Shown here: in pieces, positions 21,195-40,273 of the stretch | Layout of the letters: every line of letters starts with the position of its first letter | Numbering within the stretch: the stretch's first letter is position 1 | Origin: a virus | IMG/VR virus record: IMGVR_UViG_3300045741_000080 | Span: 1 to 41,863 of that record | Strand: one strand, 5' to 3' | Length of the DNA: 41,863 bases | Position numbers and translations under genes: made by a program | The notes under the pieces: generated by a model | Databases searched by the model: none | What the model saw: the letters and a program-made list of their open reading frames with translations, nothing else | Told to the model about the DNA's origin: nothing

Positions 21195-21587
21195 TTATCC
21201 AACAGTAGACGGTAATTCATAATGACCCGGATCTCTCTTTTTCTTCGGCCAGAAATATCCGCACTCCAAACCGATTCCCCGGCCTATCTCAGCGAGTTTT
21301 TTATATTTGGGAGATTCCCATACTACTTCATCTTGTTCATCAATAAAAAATACATCCCATGCTTCACCTTTTAAATGTCTTGAATCTCGAGTCCACGTGA
21401 CTATATTCCCCGGCCTACTGCGTCCCTGTTCGTATAACCAATCTTGATATTCCTGATCCCTAAGTGTTTGGCAAACCTTCCAATCGATCCCCCATACCAA
21501 ATCAGCATCGTAGGCATGGGCATGGAATCGGTGGAACCACGATTGGGCCTCCGGTGTTAGATCAGAGATGAGGCGGGAGTTAATCAT
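21195..21587 (-). CDS. Endolysin, M15/VanY-type peptidase
   Basis: A 130-residue peptidoglycan L-alanyl-D-glutamate endopeptidase type. The zinc motif is DSRHLKGEAWDVFF (H71, D78) and the third ligand with catalytic acid is GHYEL (H122, E124), after the QTLRDQEYQDWLYEQGRSRP segment. There is no signal peptide, so it needs a holin; two candidates lie upstream. It is the last gene of the lysis group and follows the i-spanin-like protein by one base. Confidence 0.88.
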   Translation of the reverse strand: MINSRLISDLTPEAQSWFHRFHAHAYDADLVWGIDWKVCQTLRDQEYQDWLYEQGRSRPGNIVTWTRDSRHLKGEAWDVFFIDEQDEVVWESPKYKKLAEIGRGIGLECGYFWPKKKRDPGHYELPSTVG

Positions 21588-23578: not shown

Positions 23579-23896
23579 CTACTTCTTCTTCGGTGTCTCC
23601 ACGCACGGCTCGCACCCGTCCTCGGCAGTCCCACGAGGGGCAGCAAGAAGGGGACCGATCAAAGGAAGCAGTTCTTTCAGCACCCCGGCAAGATCATCCA
23701 TCCCGGCCATGAGTGCCTTGTTGTCCGGGCTGTAGGTGTTGCTGTGCTTGCAGGGTCCGGTCTGACGCTCCTTGATGATGTAGTTTGTTGCAGACATCAC
23801 CTTACCATCCGGGGAAAACTCAATAGTTGCACAGCCTCCCGCCACCAGGCAAAGCAGACTCAGACAAATTATGATGCGGTCCCATCTGGCTTCCAT
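23579..23896 (-). CDS. Putative lipoprotein
   Basis: A 105-residue protein with a lipoprotein signal: ICLSLLCLVAGGC, with a lipobox at VAGGC and a modified cysteine at about residue 22. The mature part has CATIEFSPDGK, then two hydrophobic Leu-rich helices and a Cys-Pro-Cys-like end (CEPCVE). The AAGGAT site decides the ATG at 23896. It would sit in the outer membrane. It might be an outer spanin partner for the 21588 protein or an entry-exclusion protein; evidence for either is thin. Confidence 0.68.
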   Translation of the reverse strand: MEARWDRIIICLSLLCLVAGGCATIEFSPDGKVMSATNYIIKERQTGPCKHSNTYSPDNKALMAGMDDLAGVLKELLPLIGPLLAAPRGTAEDGCEPCVETPKKK

Positions 23897-23900
23897 TTGG

Positions 23901-24572
23901 TTATCCTTTCGGGTTGACACCCATAAGCCTTGTAATCGGAATACAAAATTCTCCCTTTTCATGGAGTAATTTTTCAAAATCATCAAATGATAGATAGCAC
24001 ATACCATTCATTCCCCAAGATTTTCCCCAGGAGTTAAACAGCTTCACATACCGACCCTTGACGTTTACGCCAGAAACCATAATCGCATGGCCTCCCTCGA
24101 CTGTTCCAGTAGCATGAATGAATCCTTTGCTGCTGTCCGGTTTCATCATGTCGGAAGTCCAGTTTATCCCAGCTACTCCAGGGCCATGATAACCCAATGC
24201 CAATACAGCATCATCAAGACTGAACCCCCACCGATATTCCCCATACCACTTCCGCTCCACACCCGCCTTAATCCCCCCAAGCACCGAACTCCCATCGTAA
24301 AATTCCCCAGGGAACTCGTCAAGCTGTTGCGCCCGTTTGTAGACCTGTATCGCTACAGCGTTGGTCAAGTTGGGGACCGGGCATGGCTTGGCCGCAGCTT
24401 CATGGGTAATACTAAACCCAACACAAGCCGGTAAACTACCTTGATCCAAGTTGATGTTGCAAGCCCAAGTATAAGATCGTGGCTTGGCCCCTACCGGGAG
24501 CATAGTAAGGATCGGGAACTTCCTCGATCTCCGATCGAAGTGCGGAATTCGTCCGAATTTTCTCTTAACCAT
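23901..24572 (-). CDS. Papain-like (C1) cysteine peptidase
   Basis: A 223-residue C1 peptidase. The oxyanion Gln and nucleophile are DQGSLPACVGFS (Q44, C50), catalytic His in GGHAIMVSGVN (H162) and Asn in FNSWGKSWGMNG (N180), in the correct order and spacing. There is no prodomain and no signal peptide, although the neighbours downstream of it in number and upstream in transcription do carry signals. It may mature a fibre or spike, or degrade host proteins. It starts shortly after the beta-helix spike gene. Confidence 0.88.
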   Translation of the reverse strand: MVKRKFGRIPHFDRRSRKFPILTMLPVGAKPRSYTWACNINLDQGSLPACVGFSITHEAAAKPCPVPNLTNAVAIQVYKRAQQLDEFPGEFYDGSSVLGGIKAGVERKWYGEYRWGFSLDDAVLALGYHGPGVAGINWTSDMMKPDSSKGFIHATGTVEGGHAIMVSGVNVKGRYVKLFNSWGKSWGMNGMCYLSFDDFEKLLHEKGEFCIPITRLMGVNPKG

Positions 24573-24585
24573 AAATTCTCCTTTC

Positions 24586-26334
24586 TCAGTTTATTCGTCC
24601 ACCGGAGATAGTGCCACCGGTGATCATGTTGGTATTTTGACTGTATTCATTGGCTCCAATGTCAAAGGTATCTCTGGTTACTCCATTAAACGATATTGAT
24701 CCTATAAAAGACGACAAATTAGTCCCAGCATCTCTCGCAGAATAGCTAGATGTTAAAGCGGCATCATTTACGTCATAAGTCCCAGCAGGGACTTGGACCC
24801 AAAAATCCTGAGTAGTGGCCTGCTTTTCACCGGTACTCAAAGAAACGCCCAAACTTCCCGAAGGAACATAATATAGATTATATGTATGGACAACATCACT
24901 ATCAAAATTAGCACCTGTACCAGATGGAGCATAGGCAATATTGTTTTTGAAATGAACAACATCTCCTTCCCCTGGATTTACACTACCGGCATCGCTGAAC
25001 ATAGCCGTTCCACCTGATTTGGTATATAATGAATTATTGTAATAAAGATGATTCTGTACCCCATCACCAGCATACCCTAAATTGTATATCGGATTTTTAA
25101 CATTATAAATTAAATTATTGTAGACTTTTACTGTTCCACCACCACTAACAGCAGCAAATAACCCTATACCAACTGAGGAATGTTCGGAACCAGTTGTAAT
25201 AGAGTCTCTGACAACATTTGAATATATGTTAAGTCCAGTAACCGTTCCAGAATTATGCGTAATTCCTCCATCATGATTACTGGTAGAACGATGGTCAGTT
25301 TGGTTTGCAACCCCCATGAAATTAGCTAACTCATTATGGTGTATAGAACCAGAATTTATGTTTCTCAACTGTATTCCGTCAAAGAGAGTATAATCAACTA
25401 TATTGTACCGGATGATTACATCTCCATAGGTGTCTACTACATCAATTCCACAAGCTGTCCCATAAGGTTGATCGGTTATTCCAGTATAATATCCCGCCTC
25501 TTTAACATAATTCCACTCAATAACCCCACCTAAAGATCCGTCAGAATATTTTATCCCGTGGTCTAAAACTCTCTCCACGGTATTATGATAAGCCCACCCA
25601 TAATCAGCATCCTGCCAATGGATACCTCCGTCACCATTAGGATACCAATGTAACCCCGATCCCTTATCTTCATAGGTTAGATTGTTTGTATAACCATAAA
25701 TATATAGGTCTATCAGATTAACATAAGCGGTTTGGTTTGCATATCCTCCACCAACAGGAAGATCATTTGAACAAGTCTGAAACTTCATACGTTGGAGGGT
25801 TAAATATGCGTTTGTCACTCCAGATGAATTAACAATAGAAACGCAACCTGTGAATGTAGGACGTTCTTGCTTATAGCCTATCATCATATATCTTGCGGTA
25901 TTACTATTCCCATATTTACCGGCAAATTCCAATGTAGAACTAAGAGTATAAGTGCTACCATTATCCCTCACCAGAATAGTCTTGTTGCCAGCCGTTATCG
26001 CAGATAACGCATTGGTTGGTGTCGTGTAAACAGTATAAGATCCGCTACCGCAAGTTCGTGTTTCTGGATTATAATTGGTTGAACCGTTGGAGCAACCAGA
26101 TGTATTCCCATCCACAAAATAGATATAGGATGGATTAATTGTGTAAGTTGTAGTTCCCTCATCGTTAGTTATTGAATAACTGCTGCTGTTTTCGTCCACA
26201 GGGAATGGCGTAGTTGTAAAAATCCCGGCTGGCTTTCCGTCCCTATCCACCCTGGTGGCCCAATAAAAAAAGTCGGCAGCGTAAGTTGGATAAGCAAAAA
26301 AGCAAAAAAGTATAAGAAAAAATAGTTTTTTCAT
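24586..26334 (-). CDS. Beta-helix tailspike-like protein with signal peptide
   Basis: A 582-residue protein. It starts with a Sec signal, MKKLFFLILFCFFAYPTYA, cut before ADFFYW. From about residue 150 to 470 the sequence has parallel beta-helix repeats (turns such as GGVIEWNYVKEAG, YGDVIIRYNIVDYT, TGLNIYSNVVRDS, GTVKVYNNLIYN) as in polysaccharide lyases and tailspikes. The C-terminus is DIGANEYSQNTNMITGGTIS. A catalytic site is not obvious. It would bind or cut a surface polysaccharide. A signal peptide is unexpected on a virion protein. It overlaps the previous gene by four bases. Confidence 0.8.
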   Translation of the reverse strand: MKKLFFLILFCFFAYPTYAADFFYWATRVDRDGKPAGIFTTTPFPVDENSSSYSITNDEGTTTYTINPSYIYFVDGNTSGCSNGSTNYNPETRTCGSGSYTVYTTPTNALSAITAGNKTILVRDNGSTYTLSSTLEFAGKYGNSNTARYMMIGYKQERPTFTGCVSIVNSSGVTNAYLTLQRMKFQTCSNDLPVGGGYANQTAYVNLIDLYIYGYTNNLTYEDKGSGLHWYPNGDGGIHWQDADYGWAYHNTVERVLDHGIKYSDGSLGGVIEWNYVKEAGYYTGITDQPYGTACGIDVVDTYGDVIIRYNIVDYTLFDGIQLRNINSGSIHHNELANFMGVANQTDHRSTSNHDGGITHNSGTVTGLNIYSNVVRDSITTGSEHSSVGIGLFAAVSGGGTVKVYNNLIYNVKNPIYNLGYAGDGVQNHLYYNNSLYTKSGGTAMFSDAGSVNPGEGDVVHFKNNIAYAPSGTGANFDSDVVHTYNLYYVPSGSLGVSLSTGEKQATTQDFWVQVPAGTYDVNDAALTSSYSARDAGTNLSSFIGSISFNGVTRDTFDIGANEYSQNTNMITGGTISGGRIN

Positions 26335-26933
26335 TGTAAGCTATAAATTAAAATGTATGATTTTATAGTGCTGGAAACTGCGGTCACGCCACCTGTTGCG
26401 TTCCATCTACCCATGCCGCCAGAAAGAGTCCCGCCACTCGCTCGTTCCCCTAACTTAATCCAGTTAGAACTATTGATAGTATTAGCCTTTACAACCAATG
26501 AATAAGTTCCAGAAACTGTGCATCCACTAAAGTCAAAAACAATATTGTTGCCGGCTCCTGGCGCACCGGGAGAATTACTTGACGTGCAAACCGGAGATCC
26601 GTAAACAATATCATTTGTTGATGGAGTCATGACATAAGCGGTATAGGTGTATCCAGTCAATGTCCCGAATTCGGCGTGACTTCTAAATGTTAATCTACAT
26701 AATTTGGTACTTGACGAAAAATTATAATCCTTTTGACCACCATAAGTTTGGTCTGTAGAATAACCTAAATTAGTGCTATCATCACTCGTAGTTTGAGAAT
26801 CTAAAAGAGTGCAGGTTTGTGCTACCGCCGCCACACGCCCGCTCACGATCGCCGGGCTTAACCTCGCCAACTCCTGACCCCAACAAAGTGAAGGAAGCAG
26901 GAGGATTGCGATTAAAATAATGAGTTTCTTCAT
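26331..26933 (-). CDS. Secreted beta-sandwich-like protein
   Basis: A 200-residue protein with a signal peptide, MKKLIILIAILLLPSLCWG, cut before QELARL. The mature part has a jelly-roll-like pattern of short strands (KLCRLTFRSHAEFGTLTGYT, YTAYVMTP, GTYSLVVKANT, SWIKLGE-type) like carbohydrate-binding modules. It is coupled to the spike gene and the coiled-coil gene by ATGA overlaps. It may be a spike or fibre accessory that binds glycan. Confidence 0.65.
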   Translation of the reverse strand: MKKLIILIAILLLPSLCWGQELARLSPAIVSGRVAAVAQTCTLLDSQTTSDDSTNLGYSTDQTYGGQKDYNFSSSTKLCRLTFRSHAEFGTLTGYTYTAYVMTPSTNDIVYGSPVCTSSNSPGAPGAGNNIVFDFSGCTVSGTYSLVVKANTINSSNWIKLGERASGGTLSGGMGRWNATGGVTAVSSTIKSYILIYSLQ

Positions 26934-27178
26934 TTGGCTTTTTCCTTCTTCGCCTCCGCAGGTTTAGGTGCTTCGGCCTTGGGATTGGCTATTTCCTTCA
27001 GGGCGTTTTGAAGGTTCTGCTCCTCGACCTGAAGCTCCAAATAGCGTTTCTCGATCTGCACTTGTTTCAACCGTGCCTCGATCTGCTCCTTTGTTGGAGC
27101 CGGTTGTTGTTGAGCAAAGGCCGTAAGCCCAAGAGTCGGTAACAACATGATAACCAGGATAATGATAATGCGTTTCAT
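26930..27178 (-). CDS. Secreted coiled-coil protein
   Basis: An 82-residue protein with a signal peptide, MKRIIIILVIMLLPTLGLT then AFA cut before QQQPA. The mature 60 residues form a coiled coil (IEARLKQVQIEKRYLELQVE) and end in a Lys/Ala/Pro tail. AAGGAG precedes the ATG. It could be a trimerising or linker piece, or a periplasmic chaperone for the fibre. Confidence 0.68.
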   Translation of the reverse strand: MKRIIIILVIMLLPTLGLTAFAQQQPAPTKEQIEARLKQVQIEKRYLELQVEEQNLQNALKEIANPKAEAPKPAEAKKEKAK

Positions 27179-27187
27179 AAAGTCTCC

Positions 27188-30100
27188 TTAACTGTTTGAT
27201 CCAGTCCAAGTTCCCTTATTTTGATACAAAATCCAGTGCGTAGAATCTACTCCGACAAAACACGCTTTATCGCCAGCCGCACCACCAGAGGTAACTTTAC
27301 CGGTTGTTCCAGCAGCCCCATAGGCCGTACCATCAATATCGATATACTGTCCATTAGCTGAAACTGTTACCGTGATGACTCCTGTTTTCCCGGTATAGTT
27401 TCCATAACATCGTTGTTTTCCAGCGGCTGCCGTTGGTAAGGTATAACCAACCGCCGTACCAGCCGTGGCGTAATTGTTGTAAGTGTAAATACTAAGTTTC
27501 TCGGGAGACTCAACGGCATTGGTGGTTGAAGTCGTCAAGACCACGTTGGTCAGACCGTCTATTACTCCGGTAGCAGTTAACGAGGTTACGGTAGGAGCCG
27601 ATGACCAAGCCGGAGCCGTACTCGTTCCTGCCGAAACCAAGACTTGACCGGTAGCCACTGCTGCAAGGCGACTGGTTGAAACACCACTCGCACCGCCTAC
27701 AATCAAATCTCCAGCCGTGGTCATGGGGTTGGTCATAAAGCTGCCAGAGGCGTTTTCGTCACTCAGCACCCCGGCCAGTTCAGCCGAGGTTGTAGCGGCA
27801 AATTGGCTTAATTTCCCACCGGTAATAGCCATCGTCCCGGTGGTCAGAGTAGCCGTTCCTGCCGTGGGAGATTGAATAACTCCGGTTCCATTGGTCAAAG
27901 TTACTTGGTTGGTTGCCGTGGTAACGGTTGCCGTCGAGAAAGTCGGATTAGCCGAAGAACCAGCGCTGACCAGGACAGCCCCGGAAGTGGCACTTGGAGC
28001 TATTCCTGCAACGTGCGTGCTATCGGCAAACACACCAAGCTGATATTGAGCCGGAGAACCGCTATTACTTAGATTACCTCCTCCAGTTGCAGCCGCCCAA
28101 ACAGGAAGATGCGTTCCAGAGTCTATTGTCAGAACGTAATTGTCAGAGCCTTTGGCCAACCTCCCTGCGGCCCCACTTGCGCCACCAAGAATCAAATCCC
28201 CGGCGGTAGTCATGGGGTTGAGGACCAAGCCGCTTGATGCGTTTGCAGCTACTCCATTGACTGTTGGAGTGTTTGTTATCTCAAGGTCGGTAAACCATCC
28301 CTTTGTCAGTCTGGTCCCGGTAGCCCCGAGAGTAGATGTCCATTCAGGAGCAGTGGCCCCGGAGTTCATCTGAAGAGTTTGGTAAGCCGTCCCTTTGGCT
28401 AAACGGGAAAGGGTTGTTGCGGAAGCACCATAAAACAGATCACCAGCCGCTTGAGAAGCCAATCCAAGTCCTGTCGCCGTAATCGTTCCAGTTCCAGTAA
28501 CTCCTAAAGATCCACTATTCCCAATCACCAAGGCATTGGTATTCGTCCCTGCCGTTACCGCTGAGAAGGCAGGTGCGCCCGTAGAGAAGGGGCCGACAGT
28601 TGACCCGGCCACCCGAGCATAAAGACCGGAAGCCAGAATCCAGATGTCGCCATTAACCGGGCTGGAAGGATCAGCAGAGCTTTGAGTCAGGTTCAACCCT
28701 GCTGCCGTTCCGTTGGTTGCTGTAATGAGCTTACCGGTCAACGTTCCACCGGCAAAGGCCAGATAAGTAGTGTCTAAATTTATGAAGGCCATAGGATGAT
28801 AGTAAGGGTTAGTAGGAGTACCATCTCCACCAGTTGCCGTAGCGTCCCAAACCAGGGCGTTACGAGTCCCTGCACCCGTTGGACGGGCATTAGGGAACTG
28901 CCCTTCATAACTAGTATTGGCAGTCAAAGAAGCAGGACCACGAAAACCAGCGGTGTCGGTATCGGTAGAGTTAGCTTCGTAAGCCCGAAGAGCACCAGCG
29001 GTCCCCGAAACCTTTGAAGCAGTAAAACTCTTTCCAACAACATCACCATCAGCGTCAACCGTGAATCCACCAGCCCCAGCCGAGATTGCCGGTACAGTCA
29101 AGAGGCTCCCGGTCAAGGTGCTGGCAGTCGCCTGGATCGTATTGGCCGTCCCGTTGGAAGTGGTGATATAATCAGCAGAGGCTGCAAGAGACCCGCCTAT
29201 AGTTGCTGTTGAGGTTCCAAACGGGCCGACAGTCGAACCGTTGATCCGAGCATAAAGCCCACCGGTAGTAGTCCATACATCACCATTGGTAGGAGATGAA
29301 GGTGCAGTCCCATGAGGTAGTCGAATACCAGCTTGCCCGGAAGCCGTTGCCGACGTAATCAGGGTTGAGCCAGCGGTCATCGTTCCACCAGCCAAGGGGA
29401 GTTTAGCCGCATCATTCCCATTCAATTTATTAATAGCTTGAAGAATGGTATCAGTATCGGCCACCGTACCCGCACCGCTGGAATATCCGGTCAAGACAGC
29501 GGCAGTCCCGGCAGCGTTCCCATAAGTAATAAAACCTCCAGTCCCATTCGTGGCATTGCCCATTGCGGTAATTACACCGGTTCCCTCGCCTGTAACCATA
29601 CTGCCAAAGTTGGTGAGGGAAGGTGTGGTCAAGAAAGTTTGAACACCAGTTGCCGTAGAGTTAAGCAAAGTCCCAGAAGTGGGTAGGGTAACTCCGGTTG
29701 TCCCGGTGAGGGTCAAAGTCAACCCATAATCACCAGAGAAAGTGATAATATTATTTGCCGTATTCGCTACCCCGGTACCACCTTTGGTAGAAGGCAATGC
29801 TGTAGTCAAAGCAGATGCAAGATTCGCACCGGAAGGGGTTGCAATCCAGGTAGATACTCCAGTGCCGGGTACAGTGACCGAAAGGGTTCCATCACTTGAT
29901 CCGGTAGTTACAAATCCGTTACTCGTAAGAGACCCAAGTTTTTTGTTGGTCAATGATTCAGACCCTGCAAGGGTAGCCATTGTTCCAGAAGTCGGGATAG
30001 TGATACTTGCCGCACCAGCAGAAGCAATGGTTAAATTAGAATCTGGAAGAGTGACGGTACGAGCCGCTGTAGGCCCAGCAATCGAAATCGGGACATTCGC

Positions 30101-31219
30101 AGGACCGACTACCAGAGTACCGGAAGCGGCAGGAAGTGATACCGCAGTATTAGTTCCTAAAGCCCCGGTCTGAGCAGTCAAGATGATATTCCCCGAAGTA
30201 GCATTAGACCATTGCAAAGTCGTGCCAGGAACGGCTGCTGTGAAAGCTGGGCCACTTGCAATATTTCCAACCGATGTGATAGTACCTAAACCGGTAGGAG
30301 TGTCTGTGTTACAATCCACCGTTTTTCCATCTGCGTTACTAACACATATCTTCCCGTTGGTCATCGTCCCGGCATAAGCAACTGTACCAGAAGCCGCTGG
30401 GAAGGTAACAACGCTTGAATCCGTACCAGCCAAGGTCAGAGTATTGTTTACCGTGAAGGTCTTCCCATTTGCCACCGCAAGAGTACTTGAAGTAGCCGGG
30501 GCAGTGATTGCCATTTTATTAATGCTGGTTGCCGTTGCCACTCCAATGTCAGGAGTGGTCAAGGTCAATCCTGCTATGGTCTGCGCTCCAGATCCCCTAT
30601 TTATCGCAGTCGAGGTAGTGCCGATATACATGGTTTGATTGGCATTGGCTTTACCATTAAAAGTATCCCAATCAGTCCCGGTCAAAAATCCTTTGGTCCC
30701 GGTAGCCGCTGCTTGTCCGTTGGTATAGTCTATCGTAACCACACCAGAGGAAGCGTTAAAGTCATTAGCATTAAAGGTTGCAACACCCTTGATCGTACCA
30801 TCAGCAGCAGCGTTAGGTAATTGAGAAGCAGTAAGACCGGTTAGGGAAGAACCATCACCCGCAGGAGTCAACCAAACCCCTTCAGTCCCGGCACATACCG
30901 CAGGGTCACCGCTGGCATTGGTGCAGACTGGCTTTGAAGCGGTAATGTTAAATCCCTTAATATGGCTGTCATCGGTCCACCCTACCCAATAATGGTTGGC
31001 AGGAGTACCGGACTTGATGACATCACCAGTACCGGCTGCGGCATTGGCGGCACAAGTGTCCCATAATCCGGTTGAAGTGTTATAAACAACAACCTGACCG
31101 TTAGAACATCCGGTAGGAAGGGAAGACCCGCTACCCCCACTTATCGGAGATCCTACCCATTGAGCATTGGCAGAAAAAGCCGTTGCCAGAATAAACAATA
31201 TAACAATTAGTTTTTTCAT
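27188..31219 (-). CDS. Long tail fibre-like protein with signal peptide
   Basis: A 1343-residue protein, very rich in Thr, Gly, Ala, Ser and poor in charged residues, typical of fibrous phage receptor-binding proteins. It starts MKKLIVILFILATAFSANA, a clear Sec signal cut before QWVGSP. Internal repeats include two NPMTTAGDLI(L/V)GGASG blocks, two GLYAR(I/V)(N/A)GSTVGPF blocks and several RLAKG-type turns, as in T4-like fibre shafts. No intramolecular chaperone or peptidase is visible at the C-terminus, which ends WILYQNKGTWTGSNS. It probably recognises the host. A GAGGT site precedes the ATG. Confidence 0.82.
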   Translation of the reverse strand: MKKLIVILFILATAFSANAQWVGSPISGGSGSSLPTGCSNGQVVVYNTSTGLWDTCAANAAAGTGDVIKSGTPANHYWVGWTDDSHIKGFNITASKPVCTNASGDPAVCAGTEGVWLTPAGDGSSLTGLTASQLPNAAADGTIKGVATFNANDFNASSGVVTIDYTNGQAAATGTKGFLTGTDWDTFNGKANANQTMYIGTTSTAINRGSGAQTIAGLTLTTPDIGVATATSINKMAITAPATSSTLAVANGKTFTVNNTLTLAGTDSSVVTFPAASGTVAYAGTMTNGKICVSNADGKTVDCNTDTPTGLGTITSVGNIASGPAFTAAVPGTTLQWSNATSGNIILTAQTGALGTNTAVSLPAASGTLVVGPANVPISIAGPTAARTVTLPDSNLTIASAGAASITIPTSGTMATLAGSESLTNKKLGSLTSNGFVTTGSSDGTLSVTVPGTGVSTWIATPSGANLASALTTALPSTKGGTGVANTANNIITFSGDYGLTLTLTGTTGVTLPTSGTLLNSTATGVQTFLTTPSLTNFGSMVTGEGTGVITAMGNATNGTGGFITYGNAAGTAAVLTGYSSGAGTVADTDTILQAINKLNGNDAAKLPLAGGTMTAGSTLITSATASGQAGIRLPHGTAPSSPTNGDVWTTTGGLYARINGSTVGPFGTSTATIGGSLAASADYITTSNGTANTIQATASTLTGSLLTVPAISAGAGGFTVDADGDVVGKSFTASKVSGTAGALRAYEANSTDTDTAGFRGPASLTANTSYEGQFPNARPTGAGTRNALVWDATATGGDGTPTNPYYHPMAFINLDTTYLAFAGGTLTGKLITATNGTAAGLNLTQSSADPSSPVNGDIWILASGLYARVAGSTVGPFSTGAPAFSAVTAGTNTNALVIGNSGSLGVTGTGTITATGLGLASQAAGDLFYGASATTLSRLAKGTAYQTLQMNSGATAPEWTSTLGATGTRLTKGWFTDLEITNTPTVNGVAANASSGLVLNPMTTAGDLILGGASGAAGRLAKGSDNYVLTIDSGTHLPVWAAATGGGNLSNSGSPAQYQLGVFADSTHVAGIAPSATSGAVLVSAGSSANPTFSTATVTTATNQVTLTNGTGVIQSPTAGTATLTTGTMAITGGKLSQFAATTSAELAGVLSDENASGSFMTNPMTTAGDLIVGGASGVSTSRLAAVATGQVLVSAGTSTAPAWSSAPTVTSLTATGVIDGLTNVVLTTSTTNAVESPEKLSIYTYNNYATAGTAVGYTLPTAAAGKQRCYGNYTGKTGVITVTVSANGQYIDIDGTAYGAAGTTGKVTSGGAAGDKACFVGVDSTHWILYQNKGTWTGSNS

Positions 31220-31245
31220 CTTTTTCTACCTCGCTGGTCTGTTTT

Positions 31246-31629
31246 TTAATACCAATAGGTTATTTGTAAAATGGCGTTAGACCCATTCGTTTTGTTTAGA
31301 AACTTAAAACTATTTATTGCACTCAAAGAATCCAACCAAATAGAGTTTCCAGCCGGGATTACATGACCCCTTTCACTACCACCGGTTTGGACAGCGGCAT
31401 CAACAAAAGATACCCGAAGGTCATAAGTCTCAACCGTGACCAAAGCTCGTTTCGGGGTTTGCCCTGACGTAACCGTAAGAACGTTCAACAAGGACCGGCT
31501 GGTATCACTTGAAGCCACCCGTTGCGTAGCACCAGGAGACCCAAGCGTTACATGGACATCCTGCTCCGCATAAGCAATCCCGACACCCAGAAACAGACCA
31601 ACAACCAGTAGAACTAAGAACTTTCTCAT
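31246..31629 (-). CDS. Secreted protein with signal peptide
   Basis: A 127-residue protein with a signal peptide, MRKFLVLLVVGLFLGVGIAYA, cut before EQDVHV. The mature part looks like a small beta-sandwich (LVTVETYDLRVSF, HVIPAGNSIWLDSL). Because it opens the series of signal-bearing genes it may be a fibre base or a periplasmic factor. Family not recognised. Confidence 0.65.
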   Translation of the reverse strand: MRKFLVLLVVGLFLGVGIAYAEQDVHVTLGSPGATQRVASSDTSRSLLNVLTVTSGQTPKRALVTVETYDLRVSFVDAAVQTGGSERGHVIPAGNSIWLDSLSAINSFKFLNKTNGSNAILQITYWY

Positions 31630-31792: not shown

Positions 31793-33586
31793 TTATTGTT
31801 GTTCAAATATACTTCCTTCACGACTAAGAACTTGAGTAGGCAACTGTCGTTTAGGAACAAAGTTTTTAGTTCTTGCACTATTCAATGCAAAAGCAATTCT
31901 TGAATTAATTTCCGGTTGAGCAATAATATGATTAAGTATTCCAGCCTTCAATCCGGTACTTAAACTACCGGTAGGAGCACCTACCGCTACCGTAGCCAAA
32001 ACATCTTGTAACTGTACTGCATTATGCTTCTGTATCCTCATGTAAGCTTTTTCAACAGCATCCTTTAAATTTATTAACCGTGCTTCCTTAGCATTTAAGG
32101 AATGAATGTCTGGATATTTCTCAAGAATAGCATTTGTAATATCTTCAGGAGATACTGTTTTCTTAATGCGGTCTTTAATATAATTAGCCGCATCAGTTAG
32201 CATCGGGATATTCCCTTTTTGATTTTTTAATGTATTAATTGCGGCAGATTCACCGGGGCTTAAAGTTTCTCTTGAAAAGTCTGCTTCTCTACGAATCAAC
32301 GGAGAAGGAGTTTGTTCAACAGGTTGTTGCGGTTTTTGTAGATAAACCGTCTGGTCAGCCTTCTTCGCACCAGGGGCAAAAGAAGTATCTGGAATCGTCC
32401 CTTTGTAAAAATTAGCCGGTTCTCTTGGCACATTGCCATAAGCTAACGGTTCACCTTCTACTTTACCTATTACCTGTTCTCGCCCAGGATTACGGATAAC
32501 CGGCATATCGCTATAAAGCATTTCAGATGAGATAGGAGGAACAGGTTGTGGTACTCCTTCTGCTATTGATTCTTCTATACCCTGTCTTAACCCACGGGCT
32601 TGTTGTTTGTCTGTTTCTATTTGGATACCCTTTAATTCTCCATAATTCTTCTTATGATGCAAATAAATCGCCTTCTTTGCTTCTTGAGCAATTTCTATGG
32701 GGATACCATCAGGATACGCATTACCGATCCTTTCTTTAATTCCGTTGATATGTTCCATAGCATTACTATATTCAGCAGGGTCGAGCATCTTTTTGTACAA
32801 ATCAGCAGCACTATCCATAGCTCCAACAACCGTTCTTGTAGGAACCTTTAATCCTTTGTCAGCCGCATCTGCGATTACTGTGTCTATAGCTCCGTTAATA
32901 TCATCCAGTTTGCCATAGATATTCTCAAGACCACGAGCATTGGGAACTATTCTTTCTTGTATCCCCTCTCTTGCATTTTGGTTGAATAATTCAGGATTCA
33001 TCTTCTTGGTTCTTGGTTGCTTTAAAACACTATTATACAAACCCAATTCAAGAGATTCAGGGATAACTGCACTAGTAACACCCCTTACCGCTCTACCGGC
33101 TGCATTGATAGGATTAATATTGCGTCCTATATTAGCAACCACATCACCCGCTTGTGTTAATTTTGGTGATTGAATTAATTTTCCTGTAGCAGAAGCCGCA
33201 CCACCACCTAAACCTAATAACCCAGAAAGATCCATTGCTACACCGGCAGGGTCTTGTCGAACTGTATTTTTAATATTCTCTAACCCACCATAACGCTTGG
33301 CATAAAAATCACCGATAGCATTTACCTCTTGTGGACGGCCAAGAGCAGTCATAAACAAGTTCTTTGCTGTATCTACCGGATGAGCAACCGCTTTAAGGGT
33401 ATTAGCATAAATATCAAATAAACTTTTAGGAATATTTTTTAAAGTATCTAACGCATATTCCCCAACTCCACCTTGAGGTTGAGTCGGAGGAGTAGGGACA
33501 ATACCCGCTTCTGCAAAAAGGTCTCTACCACCGCCAGCAGGAGCACCAGGGTCTATACCAGCCTCTTGAAACAAGTCTCTTGCCAT
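31793..33586 (-). CDS. Internal virion/ejection-type protein
   Basis: A 597-residue protein. The N-terminus has a duplicated motif, RDLFQEAGIDP and RDLFAEAGIVP, then a hydrophobic Gly-rich region (GVAMDLSGLLGLGGGAASAT), then a long helical body with Pro/Glu linker around 330-430. This make-up is typical of podovirus internal proteins that leave the head and form a channel through the envelope. No lytic transglycosylase motif is visible. It is coupled to the next upstream gene by a one-base overlap. Confidence 0.62.
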   Translation of the reverse strand: MARDLFQEAGIDPGAPAGGGRDLFAEAGIVPTPPTQPQGGVGEYALDTLKNIPKSLFDIYANTLKAVAHPVDTAKNLFMTALGRPQEVNAIGDFYAKRYGGLENIKNTVRQDPAGVAMDLSGLLGLGGGAASATGKLIQSPKLTQAGDVVANIGRNINPINAAGRAVRGVTSAVIPESLELGLYNSVLKQPRTKKMNPELFNQNAREGIQERIVPNARGLENIYGKLDDINGAIDTVIADAADKGLKVPTRTVVGAMDSAADLYKKMLDPAEYSNAMEHINGIKERIGNAYPDGIPIEIAQEAKKAIYLHHKKNYGELKGIQIETDKQQARGLRQGIEESIAEGVPQPVPPISSEMLYSDMPVIRNPGREQVIGKVEGEPLAYGNVPREPANFYKGTIPDTSFAPGAKKADQTVYLQKPQQPVEQTPSPLIRREADFSRETLSPGESAAINTLKNQKGNIPMLTDAANYIKDRIKKTVSPEDITNAILEKYPDIHSLNAKEARLINLKDAVEKAYMRIQKHNAVQLQDVLATVAVGAPTGSLSTGLKAGILNHIIAQPEINSRIAFALNSARTKNFVPKRQLPTQVLSREGSIFEQQ

Positions 33587-35097
33587 TATTGTATCCCCAA
33601 TTTTTGTTTAACTTGTTGAGGAGTCATCTTATATTTAATAGCCGTTGCATTAATATCAGCTTCAGTTGGTGGATTTTCAAGCTGTGGCTGTTGAACATCT
33701 GGATTCGCCACCTTAGTTTTATTAGGGTTTTGCCGTGCAAAAGCAGTACGCTCTAATGTTTTTCCATGTGATAATACAATATTTTCATAGGCTTTAGGGG
33801 CCAGCCTTGGGTCAAGAATGTCCATTGCCGCCTTATACGCCCACTCCCCACCTTGCTGGCCCATTACCCGTTGCAAGGCATCAGAAATCATAATTGTTTT
33901 CTTTTTAAGTAAGGCAGTATCGGGGTCAGATGATTCCGTACCAGCCCATTGTTGAATACCTTCTATGGTTCTAATATTGGTCGGCAATAATCCTTTGGCA
34001 TGGACTTTATTCCTGAGTTCTATCAATTCAGGTGCTTCCCGGTTATAGGTATAAGAAGCGGCAGCGGCAGCAGTCGCTTGTGCACCTCCCGTAGACCTTT
34101 CCCTGGACCGTTGCCCTGCTAATTCTACGTCAGCAGATGCAGGGATATATCTTCCAGGGTCTTTATTAATGTCAATACCCTTAACTTGTCTTGGAGTACC
34201 ACCTGGATATTTTTCACTAACATCTTGGGTATCTACTACTGAATAAAATCTTTCATTAGCATATGAAGCTCCTCTCGCTTGAGAACCGGCAACATTTATC
34301 TGTAACTTCTCCGCTGTTTTATTAGTGTAATCCCTAAAGGCATTTGCATATTCAGAAGTTCCTAATTTACCCTTAAATTGTGGATAAACAGCCTCGAATC
34401 CAGCCCGTTTGGTTTCTTCCGCATCGGAAGTAGTATCAACCCCAAGCAACTTCCTAACCGAGTGAGGAATTGAACTAAACGGGTCTGGCCCTGTTTCTCC
34501 TTGTGGTAAACCTTGGGGAAAATACTTTTCCATCAACTTTTCTTTAAAATCCTTTTCTTTAGGATTGGTATAAACAGGAACACCATTCTGAATCAAAGCC
34601 GCACCAGGAGCAACGGAATGAGCTTTAATCTTTTCCAAAAAAGCCGCCTTAGCTAATTCCCTTGCTGTTTGTTCAGGTTCATCTAACTTCTGAACTGCAC
34701 TCGTGATAAAAGGTGAAATACTGCTAACCGGCATTTTAGATTGACCTGAACTTATCGCTTGTAACGCATTAGATAAAGAATCAAGTCTCCTGTTGCCTTT
34801 CAATACGTTTTGTGAAGAATTGACACCCGCATCAACTACCTCTTGTGGAGAGGTTGAAAAATCACTTTGAGTGTCAACTGTAGGGTCAACCGGTTGTGTT
34901 TTAAGAATCTTGGACATCGCTCCACCGACACCGGGAGTATATTCGGGTTCTCTCAGACCGGTAACGTAATCCTGCAGAAACTTTGCTGTCCCTTGGTTGG
35001 ATTCTTGTTCCCTCTGAATCTGACGTTCTTCAGCAGCCCGTTGTTGAGCCAGAGTCATTACCGTCTTGAATATGTCCCAATCACCCATTATAGCCAT
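33586..35097 (-). CDS. Internal virion-type protein
   Basis: A 503-residue, helical, Gln/Ala-rich protein (TLAQQRAAEERQIQREQE near the N-terminus). It carries no recognised domain. Its position among large structural genes suggests an internal or ejection protein. AGGAGA precedes the ATG. The C-terminal ATAIKYKMTPQQVKQKLG segment may be a short helical motif also seen at the ends of such proteins. Confidence 0.6.
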   Translation of the reverse strand: MAIMGDWDIFKTVMTLAQQRAAEERQIQREQESNQGTAKFLQDYVTGLREPEYTPGVGGAMSKILKTQPVDPTVDTQSDFSTSPQEVVDAGVNSSQNVLKGNRRLDSLSNALQAISSGQSKMPVSSISPFITSAVQKLDEPEQTARELAKAAFLEKIKAHSVAPGAALIQNGVPVYTNPKEKDFKEKLMEKYFPQGLPQGETGPDPFSSIPHSVRKLLGVDTTSDAEETKRAGFEAVYPQFKGKLGTSEYANAFRDYTNKTAEKLQINVAGSQARGASYANERFYSVVDTQDVSEKYPGGTPRQVKGIDINKDPGRYIPASADVELAGQRSRERSTGGAQATAAAAASYTYNREAPELIELRNKVHAKGLLPTNIRTIEGIQQWAGTESSDPDTALLKKKTIMISDALQRVMGQQGGEWAYKAAMDILDPRLAPKAYENIVLSHGKTLERTAFARQNPNKTKVANPDVQQPQLENPPTEADINATAIKYKMTPQQVKQKLGIQ

Positions 35098-35110
35098 GAT
35101 AGTCTCCTGC

Positions 35111-36127
35111 TTACCAAGCGTTTCTTGCGGCCAACCGTTCAGCGGCGGTTGGAAGACTCATCTTATATTTATCATTCAAGTTTTTAACAATCTGCTCATT
35201 CTCCCAAATCCTACGCCCTGCATCTTCACCAAACATATCAGGGTTATTGGAATGAGTATAAAGATTCTTAGATTGTTCATCCAAAGCATTCCATTGTTCA
35301 TCAAAAGGATTAAACCCTTGCTGTGCCTTTATCGCCTGACCTGTAGGATCACTACTCAGATAATTCGGATTCCACCCACTTCCCTTATCGAAATTAGACC
35401 AATCTGGCAAGGAAGGTAATCCCATAGCTTGTGCCAATTTACCTTTTAATGGACCGAACATATCATTTATCTGATTACCGCTATATCCACTATTCCCAAC
35501 CCCACCAGTTTGATAATATTGACTCGATTCCTGCAACATCCGGTCATAGAGGTCTTTGGGAGTCCACCCACCAGGATCAAGCATCTGATTAGGGTTTTCC
35601 GAATCAAGACCGGATATTTCCCTGGATAGTTCTTTCGGCTTTATCCCGTATTGACTCTCTGAATTAGACCAATCTATATTTTTACCAGTTAAAATATCTG
35701 TAAGCATCTTCCCTGTTCTTCGGGTATCAAATGCCTTTTCCACCGGCTCATTACGTCCAGAACCAGCCTGATACCGCAAATAAGCCATAACTAACGGAGC
35801 GGCAACCGTAGCCCAAGACCCCGCCCCCATTGAAGTAGCCCCCTCTGTAGCTGCACCTTCTGCTCCTGCGCCAGCCCCTTCAATAGCCCCAGATCCTTCT
35901 ACAGCACCACCACCGGCCCCGGTAGCGGTATCTGAATACAATGGCTTGATATACTCATTCCATAACGGTTGCCCGTATTCTCTCCATCCTGCTTTGATAC
36001 CTTGCCGACCTAATATATTAGCAAGTGTACTATAAATATTCCCTCCACTACTCCCTGAAGGAGCAGATGGTTGAGCTTGCTGGCTGTTTGTTTGTACCGT
36101 ATATGGGCCAAACTTTAATAAAGCCAT
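35111..36127 (-). CDS. Virion protein with Gly/Ala-rich hydrophobic segment
   Basis: A 338-residue protein. Residues about 70-125 are dominated by Gly, Ala and Glu and end in ATVAAPLVMAYLRY, a possible membrane-inserting part. The rest is polar with Gln, Asn and Ser. By position and composition it is a likely ejection or tail-lumen protein. No enzyme motif is visible. Confidence 0.55.
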   Translation of the reverse strand: MALLKFGPYTVQTNSQQAQPSAPSGSSGGNIYSTLANILGRQGIKAGWREYGQPLWNEYIKPLYSDTATGAGGGAVEGSGAIEGAGAGAEGAATEGATSMGAGSWATVAAPLVMAYLRYQAGSGRNEPVEKAFDTRRTGKMLTDILTGKNIDWSNSESQYGIKPKELSREISGLDSENPNQMLDPGGWTPKDLYDRMLQESSQYYQTGGVGNSGYSGNQINDMFGPLKGKLAQAMGLPSLPDWSNFDKGSGWNPNYLSSDPTGQAIKAQQGFNPFDEQWNALDEQSKNLYTHSNNPDMFGEDAGRRIWENEQIVKNLNDKYKMSLPTAAERLAARNAW

Positions 36128-36131
36128 TTTA

Positions 36132-36725
36132 TCACCCGTACATTGAGTTCCAAAGGTCAGCGTCCAAAGCAGGGTCCACTACTGCATCTCCCGCTCCACC
36201 AGTTATGCCTTCCGTAGCTGTAGGTGTGAAATCCCCATAATCCATACCACCAGACCCGGAAAAACCAGCAAGCAACTGATCCAATGGACCGGCACCACTC
36301 ATTTGAGGAGTCTGATAAGGAGATATATCCCCACCCATATCAGGAGTAGGGGTAGCACCAGCAGGTACCGGAGTAGGTGTAGCTTGAGAATTTTGAGAAA
36401 ACAGCTTTTCCATAAACTTATCCCAAAACCCATTACCGGCCTGTCCCCCCTTCTGAGGGTTCATTTGACCCATGAGATTAGAAGCAAGATAATATTGCAC
36501 CAGCTTATCCATTAAGCTACCCGCTTGGTTTTGCTGGCTTCCCTGCCCTTGTGTAGCCGCTAATTGGGTATGCCACCGGTTGAAGGGCATTTCACGGCCA
36601 CCCATCTTAACCGTAGTCGGAGTCCCGGCTCTCCGATAAATATCGTTATATTGGTCATAAACCTCTTGCTGATCCGGGGTTCTTCCACCTGTGAAATACG
36701 ATGATAAATAACTTCCAACGCTCAT
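36132..36725 (-). CDS. Virion-associated hypothetical protein
   Basis: A 197-residue protein with Gln- and Gly-rich low-complexity regions and a Pro/Thr-rich middle (ATPTPVPAGATPTPDMGG). It lies in the tail/internal gene group, with its stop four bases before the next start. Family not recognised. Confidence 0.52.
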   Translation of the reverse strand: MSVGSYLSSYFTGGRTPDQQEVYDQYNDIYRRAGTPTTVKMGGREMPFNRWHTQLAATQGQGSQQNQAGSLMDKLVQYYLASNLMGQMNPQKGGQAGNGFWDKFMEKLFSQNSQATPTPVPAGATPTPDMGGDISPYQTPQMSGAGPLDQLLAGFSGSGGMDYGDFTPTATEGITGGAGDAVVDPALDADLWNSMYG

Positions 36726-36737
36726 TTCGCCACCTCC

Positions 36738-37427
36738 TTATAAGTATGGGAGCAATGAAGACCAATCCCAAGAACTACCCTGTGAATTACTTGAACTTTG
36801 ATTATGGGAACTGCCTTCTGCATATTTGGATATATCCATAACCTTCTGAAGCAAGTTTTGCTGATTACTGGAAAGCAACCCTTGATAAATAGTCGCTAAG
36901 TTACTCATTTTATCAGGTATCGCAGCTTGTTGTTGAGCCGCATAGACATTAGCCCCGGCTATGTTCTGAGCGGCCAATTCATTATTACGTTTTTGGATAT
37001 CAGATAACGCATCACCAGTAACCGAACTGTTTAAAATGCCACGGCTTGACATATTATTCATCACCGGTTGGTATGTCTGCTGAACATTCTCCATTGACTT
37101 CATGTATTGGTCTATCAATGCTTCCCGTTGCTTCTCTATGTTGGCATAAGCGTTTTGACCATTGTTACCATAAAAATTCTGGTAAATATTATCTAAATAA
37201 CCCATTCCTTTATATGCAGGATTATTTTTATCTAAAAAACCTGGGAATTGACCACTAAGCCAAGATGTAGCTCCAGATCGTAAACTAGGATCATACCCCG
37301 CATAATTATAGGAACTCCCGCTACTGGATGACTCACTGCTTTGTTCAGAACCGGAAGGAGCACCTTGAGGAAATTCGATAGTTCCCGCTGCATTTCCAAC
37401 TTGTTCATAACCATTATACCAACCCAT
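36738..37427 (-). CDS. Virion-associated protein (SSRGILNSS motif)
   Basis: A 229-residue protein. The segment MSSRGILNSSVTGDALSDIQ is one often met in phage tail-internal or needle-like proteins; the family function is unclear. Ser-rich ends flank a helical centre. AGGAGGTG four bases before the ATG at 37427 decides the start. Confidence 0.6.
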   Translation of the reverse strand: MGWYNGYEQVGNAAGTIEFPQGAPSGSEQSSESSSSGSSYNYAGYDPSLRSGATSWLSGQFPGFLDKNNPAYKGMGYLDNIYQNFYGNNGQNAYANIEKQREALIDQYMKSMENVQQTYQPVMNNMSSRGILNSSVTGDALSDIQKRNNELAAQNIAGANVYAAQQQAAIPDKMSNLATIYQGLLSSNQQNLLQKVMDISKYAEGSSHNQSSSNSQGSSWDWSSLLPYL

Positions 37428-37437
37428 ATCACACCTC

Positions 37438-39396
37438 CTAAGTGACCCTTGAAAGGATAGCACACTCCAACAAAATACGATCCAACCAATGTGAACCCCC
37501 TATAGAACTTAACCCGCTTATCATAAACTTAACTTGTTCAAACTCAAAGCTAAGATGATTTATGTTTTGGAATATGGTATAGAACTGATTCATCGTTAAG
37601 GTTTCAATAGCTGTACCGGAAAAGTTATTATAAATAGTCAAAGTATACGTTCCCGCTTGCTTACCACTAAGAACACAATCAACATAACTTGCTTTCTTAG
37701 CCATATGCGTAAAAAGATCGTGCCAACCAGTAGTTAAAGACAACGTGAAATCACGTGAATTATCTTGTGTCGCTGTCTCATTCAAATAATATAAATTTCC
37801 ATCATACATACCTAAAGCAATGGTCCCATTCATATTAGCCATAGCTGTTATTTTGTTATTATTGGCTGTTGAAGAAACATTAAAATCATATGTAGTCCAT
37901 GCCCCAATTTCTAAATCAAAAACAAATACAGAAGAACTCGGTCCAGCAATATATCCTGCTGAAAACCAATATTGACTATCTTCTAAATTATTGGTTGAAA
38001 AATTACCAGTATAAAGAGTGATATAATTATTTACCTTTTTGCTAATCATTCCCTGCTCAACATCTCCATACTTCTGCATAGTACGAAGTGAGTAAATTCC
38101 CCGTGAATCCTTAAATATTAAATCTCCACCAACAGATTGTATAGAATCTTGAGATTCAGCGGTAACACCATCAAATATCTTCTTAGCAGTATATTCAGCA
38201 GGAGTGTCACCGGTTAAGAGATAGATTGCTTTGGGGTTATCTGCAAAAATATAAATATCACCATAAAATGAAAACGCTCCATTTATTTTATAATGCCCAT
38301 CGAAGATTAAATATCCACCTCCATTGGCTGTTGACCAATCGTTAGGATCGTTAACATTACAATACCATAACCAATTAGGATGTATATTATCATTGCAATA
38401 AATTCTATTTTGTTTTTGAATAACAAAAGAAGCATAAGGAGCAGTAACAATTAATTCTATTTTAATAACAACATCATTCGTTAATAAGCTGGTCCAAAGA
38501 CCATCATAATATTTCAAATATCCATTAAGATTTGCGTTTGCCCCACTTAAATAACCTACACCTATTGTTCCATCACCACCACCACCCCAAAGAATAGCTA
38601 AATGATATGATGTTGAAGGACTTAACGCTGTTGTAAATGTAAAAGTATACGTTCTTAACATATCAGCATAAACGGATGCAGGATCTAAAGTAGTTGAACT
38701 TGTCTCAATTACCGTTGAACCATTGCTCGCATAAAGGACAGCAGTAATATTTCCTGTACAAGTTCCGGTTACGGCTCTTATTAATTTAACAGAAATAGAA
38801 GATAAAGTAGCTGTACCAGAAAATGCAGGAGTAGTAAAAAACTGCGCTACTCTACCTACCCCCCCATTAGTCATAGCAACAATATCTCCAGCTGGGTTTA
38901 AATTGTCTAAACCATCAATAAGAATATTACTAGTAGCAATCCCTATATCGGTAAGATTACCAAAACTTTGTCCATCCCAATATTTTAATATTCCACCATC
39001 TGCCACAATCAGCTTATTATTAAATCGACACATCCTACCACGAGTAGAAGATAAATCCCCTATCTTGGTAAAAGCACCAGCATTTAGATAGTTCAAGTCA
39101 GAATCAGCTACTGCCAACCAATATGCTGTTCCCGATGAAGATACAAAATGAAAAAGATCGTTAATAGAGCCGTTAGCTGGAGCATTAAGAGAAGACTTTA
39201 ATAATCCACTACGGCTTTTTAATTTAACACCCCGATTTGTCTTTTTAAACTTCCAATTAATAATAGATGAAAGTTCTGTTTCATCCAAAGCCATTAAATT
39301 AAGTTCATTAGTGTTCAATCCACCGGAAAAGTTATCCAAAACCAAAGTAACCGGCTTAGCATTGGTAGTGGGCTTACTGGAAGGGTTTATAGACAT
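37438..39396 (-). CDS. Tail hub/nozzle-like stabilisation protein
   Basis: A 652-residue beta-rich protein. It begins with LVLDNFSGGLNTNELN and a following SRSG segment (RSGLLKSS), the usual opening of podovirus stabilisation or nozzle proteins with a propeller-like core (repeated strand-turns such as IYIFADNPKAIYLLTG and DLIFKDSRGIYSLRTMQ). An insertion around residues 190-300 resembles a jelly roll (TGTCTGNITAVLYASNGS...). It would close the tail below the adaptor. TAGGAG lies before the ATG at 39396, preferred to an ATG eight codons upstream. Confidence 0.72.
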   Translation of the reverse strand: MSINPSSKPTTNAKPVTLVLDNFSGGLNTNELNLMALDETELSSIINWKFKKTNRGVKLKSRSGLLKSSLNAPANGSINDLFHFVSSSGTAYWLAVADSDLNYLNAGAFTKIGDLSSTRGRMCRFNNKLIVADGGILKYWDGQSFGNLTDIGIATSNILIDGLDNLNPAGDIVAMTNGGVGRVAQFFTTPAFSGTATLSSISVKLIRAVTGTCTGNITAVLYASNGSTVIETSSTTLDPASVYADMLRTYTFTFTTALSPSTSYHLAILWGGGGDGTIGVGYLSGANANLNGYLKYYDGLWTSLLTNDVVIKIELIVTAPYASFVIQKQNRIYCNDNIHPNWLWYCNVNDPNDWSTANGGGYLIFDGHYKINGAFSFYGDIYIFADNPKAIYLLTGDTPAEYTAKKIFDGVTAESQDSIQSVGGDLIFKDSRGIYSLRTMQKYGDVEQGMISKKVNNYITLYTGNFSTNNLEDSQYWFSAGYIAGPSSSVFVFDLEIGAWTTYDFNVSSTANNNKITAMANMNGTIALGMYDGNLYYLNETATQDNSRDFTLSLTTGWHDLFTHMAKKASYVDCVLSGKQAGTYTLTIYNNFSGTAIETLTMNQFYTIFQNINHLSFEFEQVKFMISGLSSIGGSHWLDRILLECAILSRVT

Positions 39397-39404
39397 ATCA
39401 TCTC

Positions 39405-39608
39405 CTAATGCACTACACAAATAGTATCAGGGTCAGTATTGGTTCGATACAAATCACCAGCAACAAGACCACCTGCTATAGCCGCTGCATTATTGGCATA
39501 AGCTGGTAAAGAGGTAAGTTGCAACAAAGCAACAAGGTTCCTCAATACTTCGGGAGTCTTACCCTTCTCCACTAAATCTATATTTCCAATATAATTTCGA
39601 TCAGCCAT
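39405..39608 (-). CDS. Small phage protein, GDLYRT motif
   Basis: A 67-residue protein. The C-terminus, YANNAAAIAGGLVAGDLYRT followed by DTICVVH, is a short motif found in many phage structural operons, sometimes as a fibre-tip-like peptide. The function is not established. It lies between adaptor and hub genes. Confidence 0.68.
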   Translation of the reverse strand: MADRNYIGNIDLVEKGKTPEVLRNLVALLQLTSLPAYANNAAAIAGGLVAGDLYRTNTDPDTICVVH

Positions 39609-39610
39609 TA

Positions 39611-40273
39611 CTACTCCCAGGAAAACCCATCATCAAACCCAATTTCAAATCCATCCCGACCAAATACCGTTTCCATAGCAATCCGATCAAGTTCAGCGTA
39701 TTCCATACCGTCCCGTTGAGCGGCCCCTACGTTTTCAGACCGATCCCGGCATTTGCTGATAACAAACTTTTCTATAGCCTCATCAAACTGACCATCCCAA
39801 GGTACAGGGCCACCGGTTGAGCTGATAACTTGTTTAACATAATGATAATATTTAATGTCATACTTCTTATCACCTCGTGGATGGACATAAAGCCTGTTCC
39901 CCCTTATGTACCACTCTGTAGGAGCACCAGAATTAACAGAAGTCTCCGCTTCCCAACCGTCTATAGCATCTTCATCGGCCTTACCCATTGGACTTGTGCC
40001 ATTGGTTAGGTTAAATACACGATGCTTACCATACTTATTAGCTGCCATTTTAATGAAGTTGTCCGGTAACGCCTTTGATACCGTACCAGTACCATAAGTC
40101 ACAGAAGTAGCAGACTCGGCAATCTTAGCATCCATAGCAGCCAGTTTACGAGAAAGATACGATATCGCTTTATTACCATAAACCAGTAACTCAGCATCGA
40201 CATAATCTTTCTGCGATGTATCGTGAAGCTCATAGAGCATATTCGTTTTAAGCGTCTTGTATTTCGTTGCCAT
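39611..40273 (-). CDS. Head-tail adaptor/connector protein
   Basis: A 220-residue protein. LKTNMLYELHDTSQKDYVDA at the start, a central SKALPDNFIKM strand and HPRGDKKYDIKYYHYVK, then a helical end, resemble adaptor proteins of the SU10/gp4-like group that dock under the portal. The assignment is by general resemblance and by position before the hub gene. GGAG precedes the ATG, and the gene overlaps the GT9 gene by 26 bases. Confidence 0.65.
   Translation of the reverse strand: MATKYKTLKTNMLYELHDTSQKDYVDAELLVYGNKAISYLSRKLAAMDAKIAESATSVTYGTGTVSKALPDNFIKMAANKYGKHRVFNLTNGTSPMGKADEDAIDGWEAETSVNSGAPTEWYIRGNRLYVHPRGDKKYDIKYYHYVKQVISSTGGPVPWDGQFDEAIEKFVISKCRDRSENVGAAQRDGMEYAELDRIAMETVFGRDGFEIGFDDGFSWE

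Follow-up and report, generated by a model that had tools for sequence, protein, structure and literature searches.

Tailed phages, in the textbook account, assemble in the cytoplasm. In P22-type podoviruses, the beta-helical tailspike is thought to join the particle last; it has no signal peptide, folds in the cytoplasm, and docks by an N-terminal head-binding domain. Virion proteins with cleaved signal peptides occur as the coat proteins of inoviruses, which assemble in the membrane and are extruded. Phage proteins of the Lom, Cor, and Llp type also have export signals and are encoded near tail genes, and they act in the host outer membrane rather than as fibres. Here, we describe a run of five consecutive genes predicted to encode Sec signal peptides in the fibre and spike region of an uncultured phage. 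The DNA analyzed (hereafter the window) is the IMG/VR virus record IMGVR_UViG_3300045741_000080 (41,863 bases), whose source is a divergent short-tailed (podovirus-type) tailed phage, and the five genes occupy positions 24586 to 31629.

The window phage resembles P22-type podoviruses in its short tail and has a putative beta-helical spike, whereas the P22 tailspike is made without a signal peptide; by analogy with that system, late attachment of the spike is plausible. Unlike inoviruses, the window phage is of the tailed type with lysis genes, and its head and tail proteins have no signals. Like the Lom, Cor, and Llp systems, it encodes export signals near tail genes, but those products act in the outer membrane of the host and are not fibres. 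Lom is mentioned in PMC12309495, and a study of flavophages (PMC8776804) notes in passing, without interpretation, "signaling peptides" on the lyases of phages Ingeline and Nekkels. In the open-access library searched, no paper was found that treats signal-bearing fibres as a group or considers by what route they come to be on the particle, and the subscription literature may differ. The original prediction made from this DNA had regarded fibres with export signals as unexpected, which proved too strong, as runs of such genes recur in uncultured contigs and in cultured Cellulophaga phages. The five-gene run is one more case of an arrangement already in public genomes.

Signal peptides of the five-gene run

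Signal peptides were called with a simple, home-made scorer trained on 23 textbook Escherichia coli signal sequences, which score 7.8 to 14.6 in it, using a threshold of >5.5. When the scorer was applied to 49 window genes, exactly five passed, and these formed one unbroken run (31246, 27188, 26930, 26331, and 24586, each gene being named by its lowest coordinate), with all five open reading frames found where the original prediction had placed them. Their scores were 5.98, 13.8, 9.9, 5.8, and 9.95, respectively, compared with 3.1 or less elsewhere; the 3.1 belongs to a holin-like protein with one transmembrane segment. Each N-terminus has a basic n-region, a hydrophobic core, and small residues (at -3/-1) before a plausible cleavage site, which is the n-h-c pattern of a Sec/signal peptidase I precursor. 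When N-terminal residues were shuffled, the observed score was matched in 3 of 1,000 trials for 31246 and 29 of 1,000 for 26331, and in none for the other three genes. The background rate across ten phage records was 14 of 573 genes scoring >5.5, several of the 14 being fibre genes, and the chance that five positives among 49 genes fall in one run is 45/C(49,5), or about 2.4e-5.

The start codons, which might have been wrongly called, are supported. Shine-Dalgarno sites lie upstream of the starts at 31629 (gene 31246, AGGAGG), 31219 (gene 27188, GAGG), and 27178 (gene 26930, AGGAG), and the start at 26933 (gene 26331) has both AAGGA and an ATGA overlap with the preceding gene. The start at 26334 (gene 24586) lacks a Shine-Dalgarno site but has an ATGA overlap. 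In none of the five genes was there a credible in-frame start further downstream that would drop the signal peptide. Visual comparison of the five signal sequences spoke against DNA homology among them, as codons differ and the signals look independent.

All five genes lie on the minus strand. The first encodes a 127-amino-acid protein (31246-31629) with a predicted signal peptide at residues 1 to 21 (31567-31629; MRKFLVLLVVGLFLGVGIAYA then EQ) and a mature part of 106 amino acids, which is probably a small beta protein, judging by a single-sequence AlphaFold model that is mostly beta at low confidence (predicted local distance difference test [pLDDT] 59). This protein had no family matches, and tblastn against phages was also empty. 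Next comes a tail fibre of 1,343 amino acids (27188-31219; signal at residues 1 to 19, 31163-31219, MKKLIVILFILATAFSANA then QW), whose mature N-terminal module reads WVGSPIS...TGCSNGQVVVYNTSTGLWDTC. Its modules and repeats match annotated phage virion structural and tail fibre proteins, and it is a tail fibre by this relation to known fibres, the only one of the five so related; 24586, 26331, and 31246 had no match to known fibres. The eight cysteines of the fibre all fall in close pairs (38/56, 99/109, 292/303, and 1271/1320; P = 0.002 for four such pairs), a pairing that would fit folding in an oxidizing compartment.

The third gene (26930-27178) encodes 82 amino acids with a signal at residues 1 to 22 (27113-27178; MKRIIIILVIMLLPTLGLTAFA then QQ), and its charged mature peptide of 60 amino acids is, as read by eye, probably a coiled coil. 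Encoded right after the fibre, this product could be a periplasmic fibre chaperone or a linker. The fourth (26331-26933) encodes 200 amino acids, with a signal at residues 1 to 19 (26877-26933; MKKLIILIAILLLPSLCWG then QE, the CWG/QE site being weaker) and four cysteines in the mature part. The last encodes a spike-like protein of 582 amino acids (24586-26334; signal at residues 1 to 19, 26278-26334, MKKLFFLILFCFFAYPTYA then AD). Its repeated asparagine ladders (HHNELAN, IYSNVVRD, VYNNLIYN, YYNNSLY, and FKNNIAY) mark it, by sequence pattern, as a putative right-handed beta-helix; an AlphaFold model made without homologs had a pLDDT of 31. The spike-like protein had no Pfam or PHROG match, its tblastn search in phages was empty, and no relatives in bacterial genomes (genome_contigs) were found by an 8-residue pattern scan, which is sensitive to close relatives only.

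Signal-bearing fibres in cultured and uncultured phages

Cellulophaga phages were read with their annotated starts. Phage phi10:1 has five consecutive genes with signal-peptide-like starts (gp091 to gp095), including a tail fibre (gp094) and a pectate-lyase spike (gp093); gp091 to gp094 have the GenBank label "annotation based on experimental MS/MS proteomics analysis" (MS/MS, tandem mass spectrometry), which gp095 lacks. Signal peptides are likewise present in all four of phi19:1 gp101 to gp104 and in both of phi39:1 gp25 and gp26, every one an MS/MS-labelled virion protein. Runs also occur in phi46:3, phi19:3, phi13:2, and Ingeline, where several of the proteins are structural by similarity only. 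No signal peptide was found in the fibre modules of phi12:1, phi38:1, phi14:2, and Bacteroides phage B124-14, and per phage the signals were nearly all-or-none. The signal-bearing modules of these Cellulophaga siphoviruses and Pachyviridae resemble the window in having 2 to 5 consecutive signal-peptide genes, which include a tail fibre and beta-helix spikes and lie downstream of tail genes without signals. They differ in that their spikes are annotated as pectate lyases and their hosts are Bacteroidota, and no blastp match to window proteins was obtained at E<=1e-3; the arrangement is the same, but the family is not.

Comparison of these phages indicates that signals are exchanged. The spike body of phi10:1 gp093, whose signal is MKKTIYILSILLLTISGVSAQ, recurs in phi46:3 gp081 (93% identity), where both the signal (MKHTFNIVLFFILSLGLNAQ) and the N-terminal segment differ, and in Ingeline gp32 (49%), which has a third signal (MKKTLLILAILATALVSAQ). 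Phage phi17:2 gp054 has the same body, at 49%, with an N-terminus that lacks a signal, and the neighbouring fibre genes are likewise without signals. Because one spike body stands behind three signals and has none in phi17:2, the signal goes with the phage and not with the spike, and signals thus appear to follow the phage's way of assembly. The core of phi10:1 gp092 is 64% identical to that of phi19:1 gp101, while their N-terminal regions are unrelated, each with its own signal; between gp094 and gp103, the signal and adjacent 30 residues are nearly identical and the remainder is exchanged. Two fibres of an uncultured contig (L034) have in common a domain of 55 residues; in each of them its first residue is exactly the one predicted to follow the cut, and the signals in front differ, as would be expected of a mature docking domain preceded by a removable signal. 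The junction [AGS]Q is present in 13 of 14 distinct fibre signal peptides from cultured phages versus 8 of 48 other N-terminally hydrophobic genes of the same records (P = 3e-7).

Two further observations concern the Cellulophaga fibres. Those without signals in phi17:2 (NC_021798, L118, gp050 to gp053) and crAss-like phi14:2 (NC_021806, L104, g085) have a common docking N-terminus, MAEPIIK(N/K)(K/E)NI(Q/E)D(I/L)PI(T/S)KV. In phi13:2 (NC_021803, L121), gp085, at 71 amino acids and without a signal, looks like a detached piece of a gp084-type fibre, possibly from a frameshifted or split gene.

A scan of viral_contigs with the fibre motif GFLTxTDWxxFN yielded 86 stretches, in which 59 fibre open reading frames had a closed 5' end; a second fibre pattern, TGTD...TFP, gave zero matches. 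Signal peptides were absent from 35 of the 59 and present in six unrelated fibres (L006, L010, L050, L053, L057, and L077); one was intermediate, and 17 formed one family, in which a long n-region precedes a hydrophobic signal. Neighbours of the signal-bearing fibres include a tape measure protein (L050 and L034), a J-like tail tip protein (L077), a terminase and portal (L053), and a major head protein (L010). Contigs L010 and L053 each have two signal-peptide genes, L034 has three, and L057 has four (one weak). The signal-bearing neighbour of 393 amino acids in L034 is a recognised tail fibre, which matches phrog_1980 from profile position 110; the first 109 positions have no counterpart, and the signal precedes the matched part. 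The L013-L087 fibre family (e.g., L034:5652-9659), with three signal-type genes in a row, has a strongly conserved basic n-region of ~50 residues (MEEIKAPKKERKFLKAIGNIGKVL...) before the hydrophobic signal, reminiscent of the extended signal peptides of large autotransporters.

A pattern scan for the cysteine-bounded module behind the window fibre's signal returned a single contig, L123. Its fibre starts with MKRISLFFALCLLLSTAAHA, predicted to be cut before QFLQPGHGGGANSFPACTNGQVFVYNSTSGKWDTC, and its mature N-terminal module can be aligned with that of 27188 behind the cleavage site, while the signals have diverged; two further signal-peptide-like genes follow. L123 is, like the window, a podovirus-like IMG/VR contig that encodes a signal-bearing fibre with the homologous mature N-terminal module; its connector matches phrog_332. 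Unlike the window, it has a terminase of a different family (phrog_2), its other signal-bearing proteins are not homologous, and the 110-amino-acid protein preceding its fibre has no signal. Cultured phages of known fibre class whose repeats are common with these proteins had no signals, so the trait is not general.

Proposed export and docking weighed against other readings

With modest confidence, we lean towards reading the products of the block as true virion fibres and spikes, which would leave the cytoplasm by Sec, be processed, and join the particles there. The block would be the distal fibre and spike module of a podovirus-type phage, its five products being precursors, each with a Sec signal peptide that can be cleaved off. 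These precursors would cross the inner membrane, lose the signal, and fold outside the cytoplasm; a mature N-terminal domain, in those that have one, would then attach them to heads and tail tubes built in the cytoplasm, the simplest occasion being lysis, when the two compartments mix. A possible purpose is that disulfides form, or large beta proteins fold, away from the cytoplasm; a further gain near the time of lysis could be that progeny are kept from adsorbing and surface glycans are digested. The contiguity of the signal run, and the lack of any signal in the cytoplasmically assembled head and tail set, are in line with this. Export with late fibre attachment had been among the suggestions of the original prediction and gives the best fit to the comparative evidence (MS/MS virion labels and signals kept through exchange), with export, cleavage, and timing being what we infer.

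Several points weigh against export and docking. The signal calls depend on a simple scorer. Two of the five genes (31246 and 26331) have weaker signals, with scores under the textbook E. coli range, and the signals of gp095, phi46:3 gp079 and gp083, and Ingeline gp34 do not reach the threshold and were assigned by visual inspection. The MS/MS virion labels are record annotations from three cultured phages, and for the window phage virion location and signal removal are both predictions from sequence. Cysteine content in the survey is equal in signal-bearing and signal-free fibres (0.29 vs 0.29 per 100 amino acids) and was therefore rejected as a general export marker.

The five proteins might be exported and yet have their main role in the periplasm or at the infected cell's surface, in receptor blocking, superinfection exclusion, glycan digestion, or progeny release, without being virion parts in the window phage. 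The signals, the nearby lipoprotein, and the beta-helix-like spike would suit such a role, for which the receptor-blocking phage lipoproteins T5 Llp and T1 Cor are established examples. We consider it not very likely, since signal runs in phages of the same arrangement include an annotated tail fibre and spikes, MS/MS-labelled as virion, and since the window would be left without an evident receptor-binding module. It is also conceivable that Sec makes no use of the N-terminal segments, which would be kept in the virion tail as hydrophobic docking or membrane-inserting helices. Proteins of the same architecture are indeed labelled as virion proteins, gp094 and gp103 agree through the signal into the next 30 residues, and the n-region of the L034 fibre is, at ~50 residues, unusually long. 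Retained helices are nevertheless unlikely, as they do not account for conserved signal-peptidase-like junctions, for signal sequences that vary freely before one body, or for homology that starts at the predicted cut, and convergence of unrelated docking segments towards an n-h-c architecture would be surprising.

Capture of the whole block from a host surface-protein locus, which the original prediction had offered as an alternative, would make the signals leftovers. Although the spike and small proteins have no matches among phages, and bacteria commonly secrete proteins of the beta-helix type, we find this quite improbable: the fibre repeats match phage structural proteins and phage fibres that lack signals, the block is in the normal position of a fibre module, signals persist through repeated domain exchange in cultured phages, and no host relative of the spike emerged from the genome_contigs scan for close relatives. 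Scarcely credible is an artefact of wrong start codons or chance hydrophobic N-termini. The missing Shine-Dalgarno site at 26334 and the weak signal of 26331 would favour it, but every start has a Shine-Dalgarno site or ATGA coupling with no better start available, and the shuffle tests, contiguity, and recurrence all speak against it.

Gene neighbourhood, host, and implications

The block occupies the usual place of a fibre module, with tail and internal virion genes upstream and lysis genes, including an endolysin (21195-21587), downstream. Genes for the major head protein (2562-3485), portal/connector (4766-6868), terminase large subunit (7069-8826), and internal virion and structural proteins (37438-40273; matches to phrog_3287 and phrog_399) were recognised. 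The minus-strand tail and internal virion module and sugar genes at 31793-41848, which have no signal peptides, served as a contrast set, with scores all <1.3. Against 50,697 phage records, the best identity of the window terminase was ~27%, and searches with four window proteins found no close relatives in IMG/VR viral contigs.

Directly after the block, between the spike and the lysis genes, lies a minus-strand gene for a papain-like cysteine peptidase without a signal peptide (23901-24572; phrog_16701, E = 5e-62), which has Cys, His, and Asn motifs. Its relatives are found in actinobacteriophages, in jumbo Stenotrophomonas and Xanthomonas phages, and in phage GX15bay, where the neighbouring genes are glycosyltransferases. 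The lipoprotein that had been said to follow the block is real; it lies one gene further on, after the peptidase, and starts at 23896 rather than 24007. This predicted lipoprotein of 105 amino acids (23579-23896, minus strand; LVAGGC) has an ATG at 23896 with a Shine-Dalgarno site. A sugar-modification island, cut by the record ends (102-2020 and 40248-41848), lies between the head and tail genes and encodes two GT4-type glycosyltransferases and a hexapeptide-repeat acyltransferase (41345-41848). The island's protein at 40248-41348 has no Pfam match and has, by eye, a heptosyltransferase-like N-terminus.

Shine-Dalgarno sites precede 24 of 40 window genes, at a G+C content of 44%, versus 1 of 18 module genes in phi10:1, the Cellulophaga modules having almost none. 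Because the window uses such sites and the Cellulophaga phage modules scarcely do, its host is probably not a member of the Bacteroidota, and the fibre signal-peptide trait probably spans host phyla. More tentatively, and short of calling it probable, we propose a class of tailed phages that finish their particles beyond the cytoplasm. In such phages, every distal fibre and spike would be Sec-exported and processed, would wait in the periplasm or at the surface, and would dock only at lysis, in a two-compartment form of Caudoviricetes assembly that podoviruses and siphoviruses with different hosts would have gained independently.

Cultured Cellulophaga phages, among which one spike body is found in both signal-bearing and signal-free form, offer a direct test. 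If fibres are exported, the signal must be allowed for when receptor-binding proteins of this kind are produced in the laboratory. If many environmental phages export their fibres and spikes, then folding in an oxidizing compartment, blocking of receptors by the phage's own fibres, and docking at lysis would enter phage biology. Overall, cultured marine phages have the same arrangement, with public records that assign such proteins to the virion, and this points to an unstudied route of phage tail construction.

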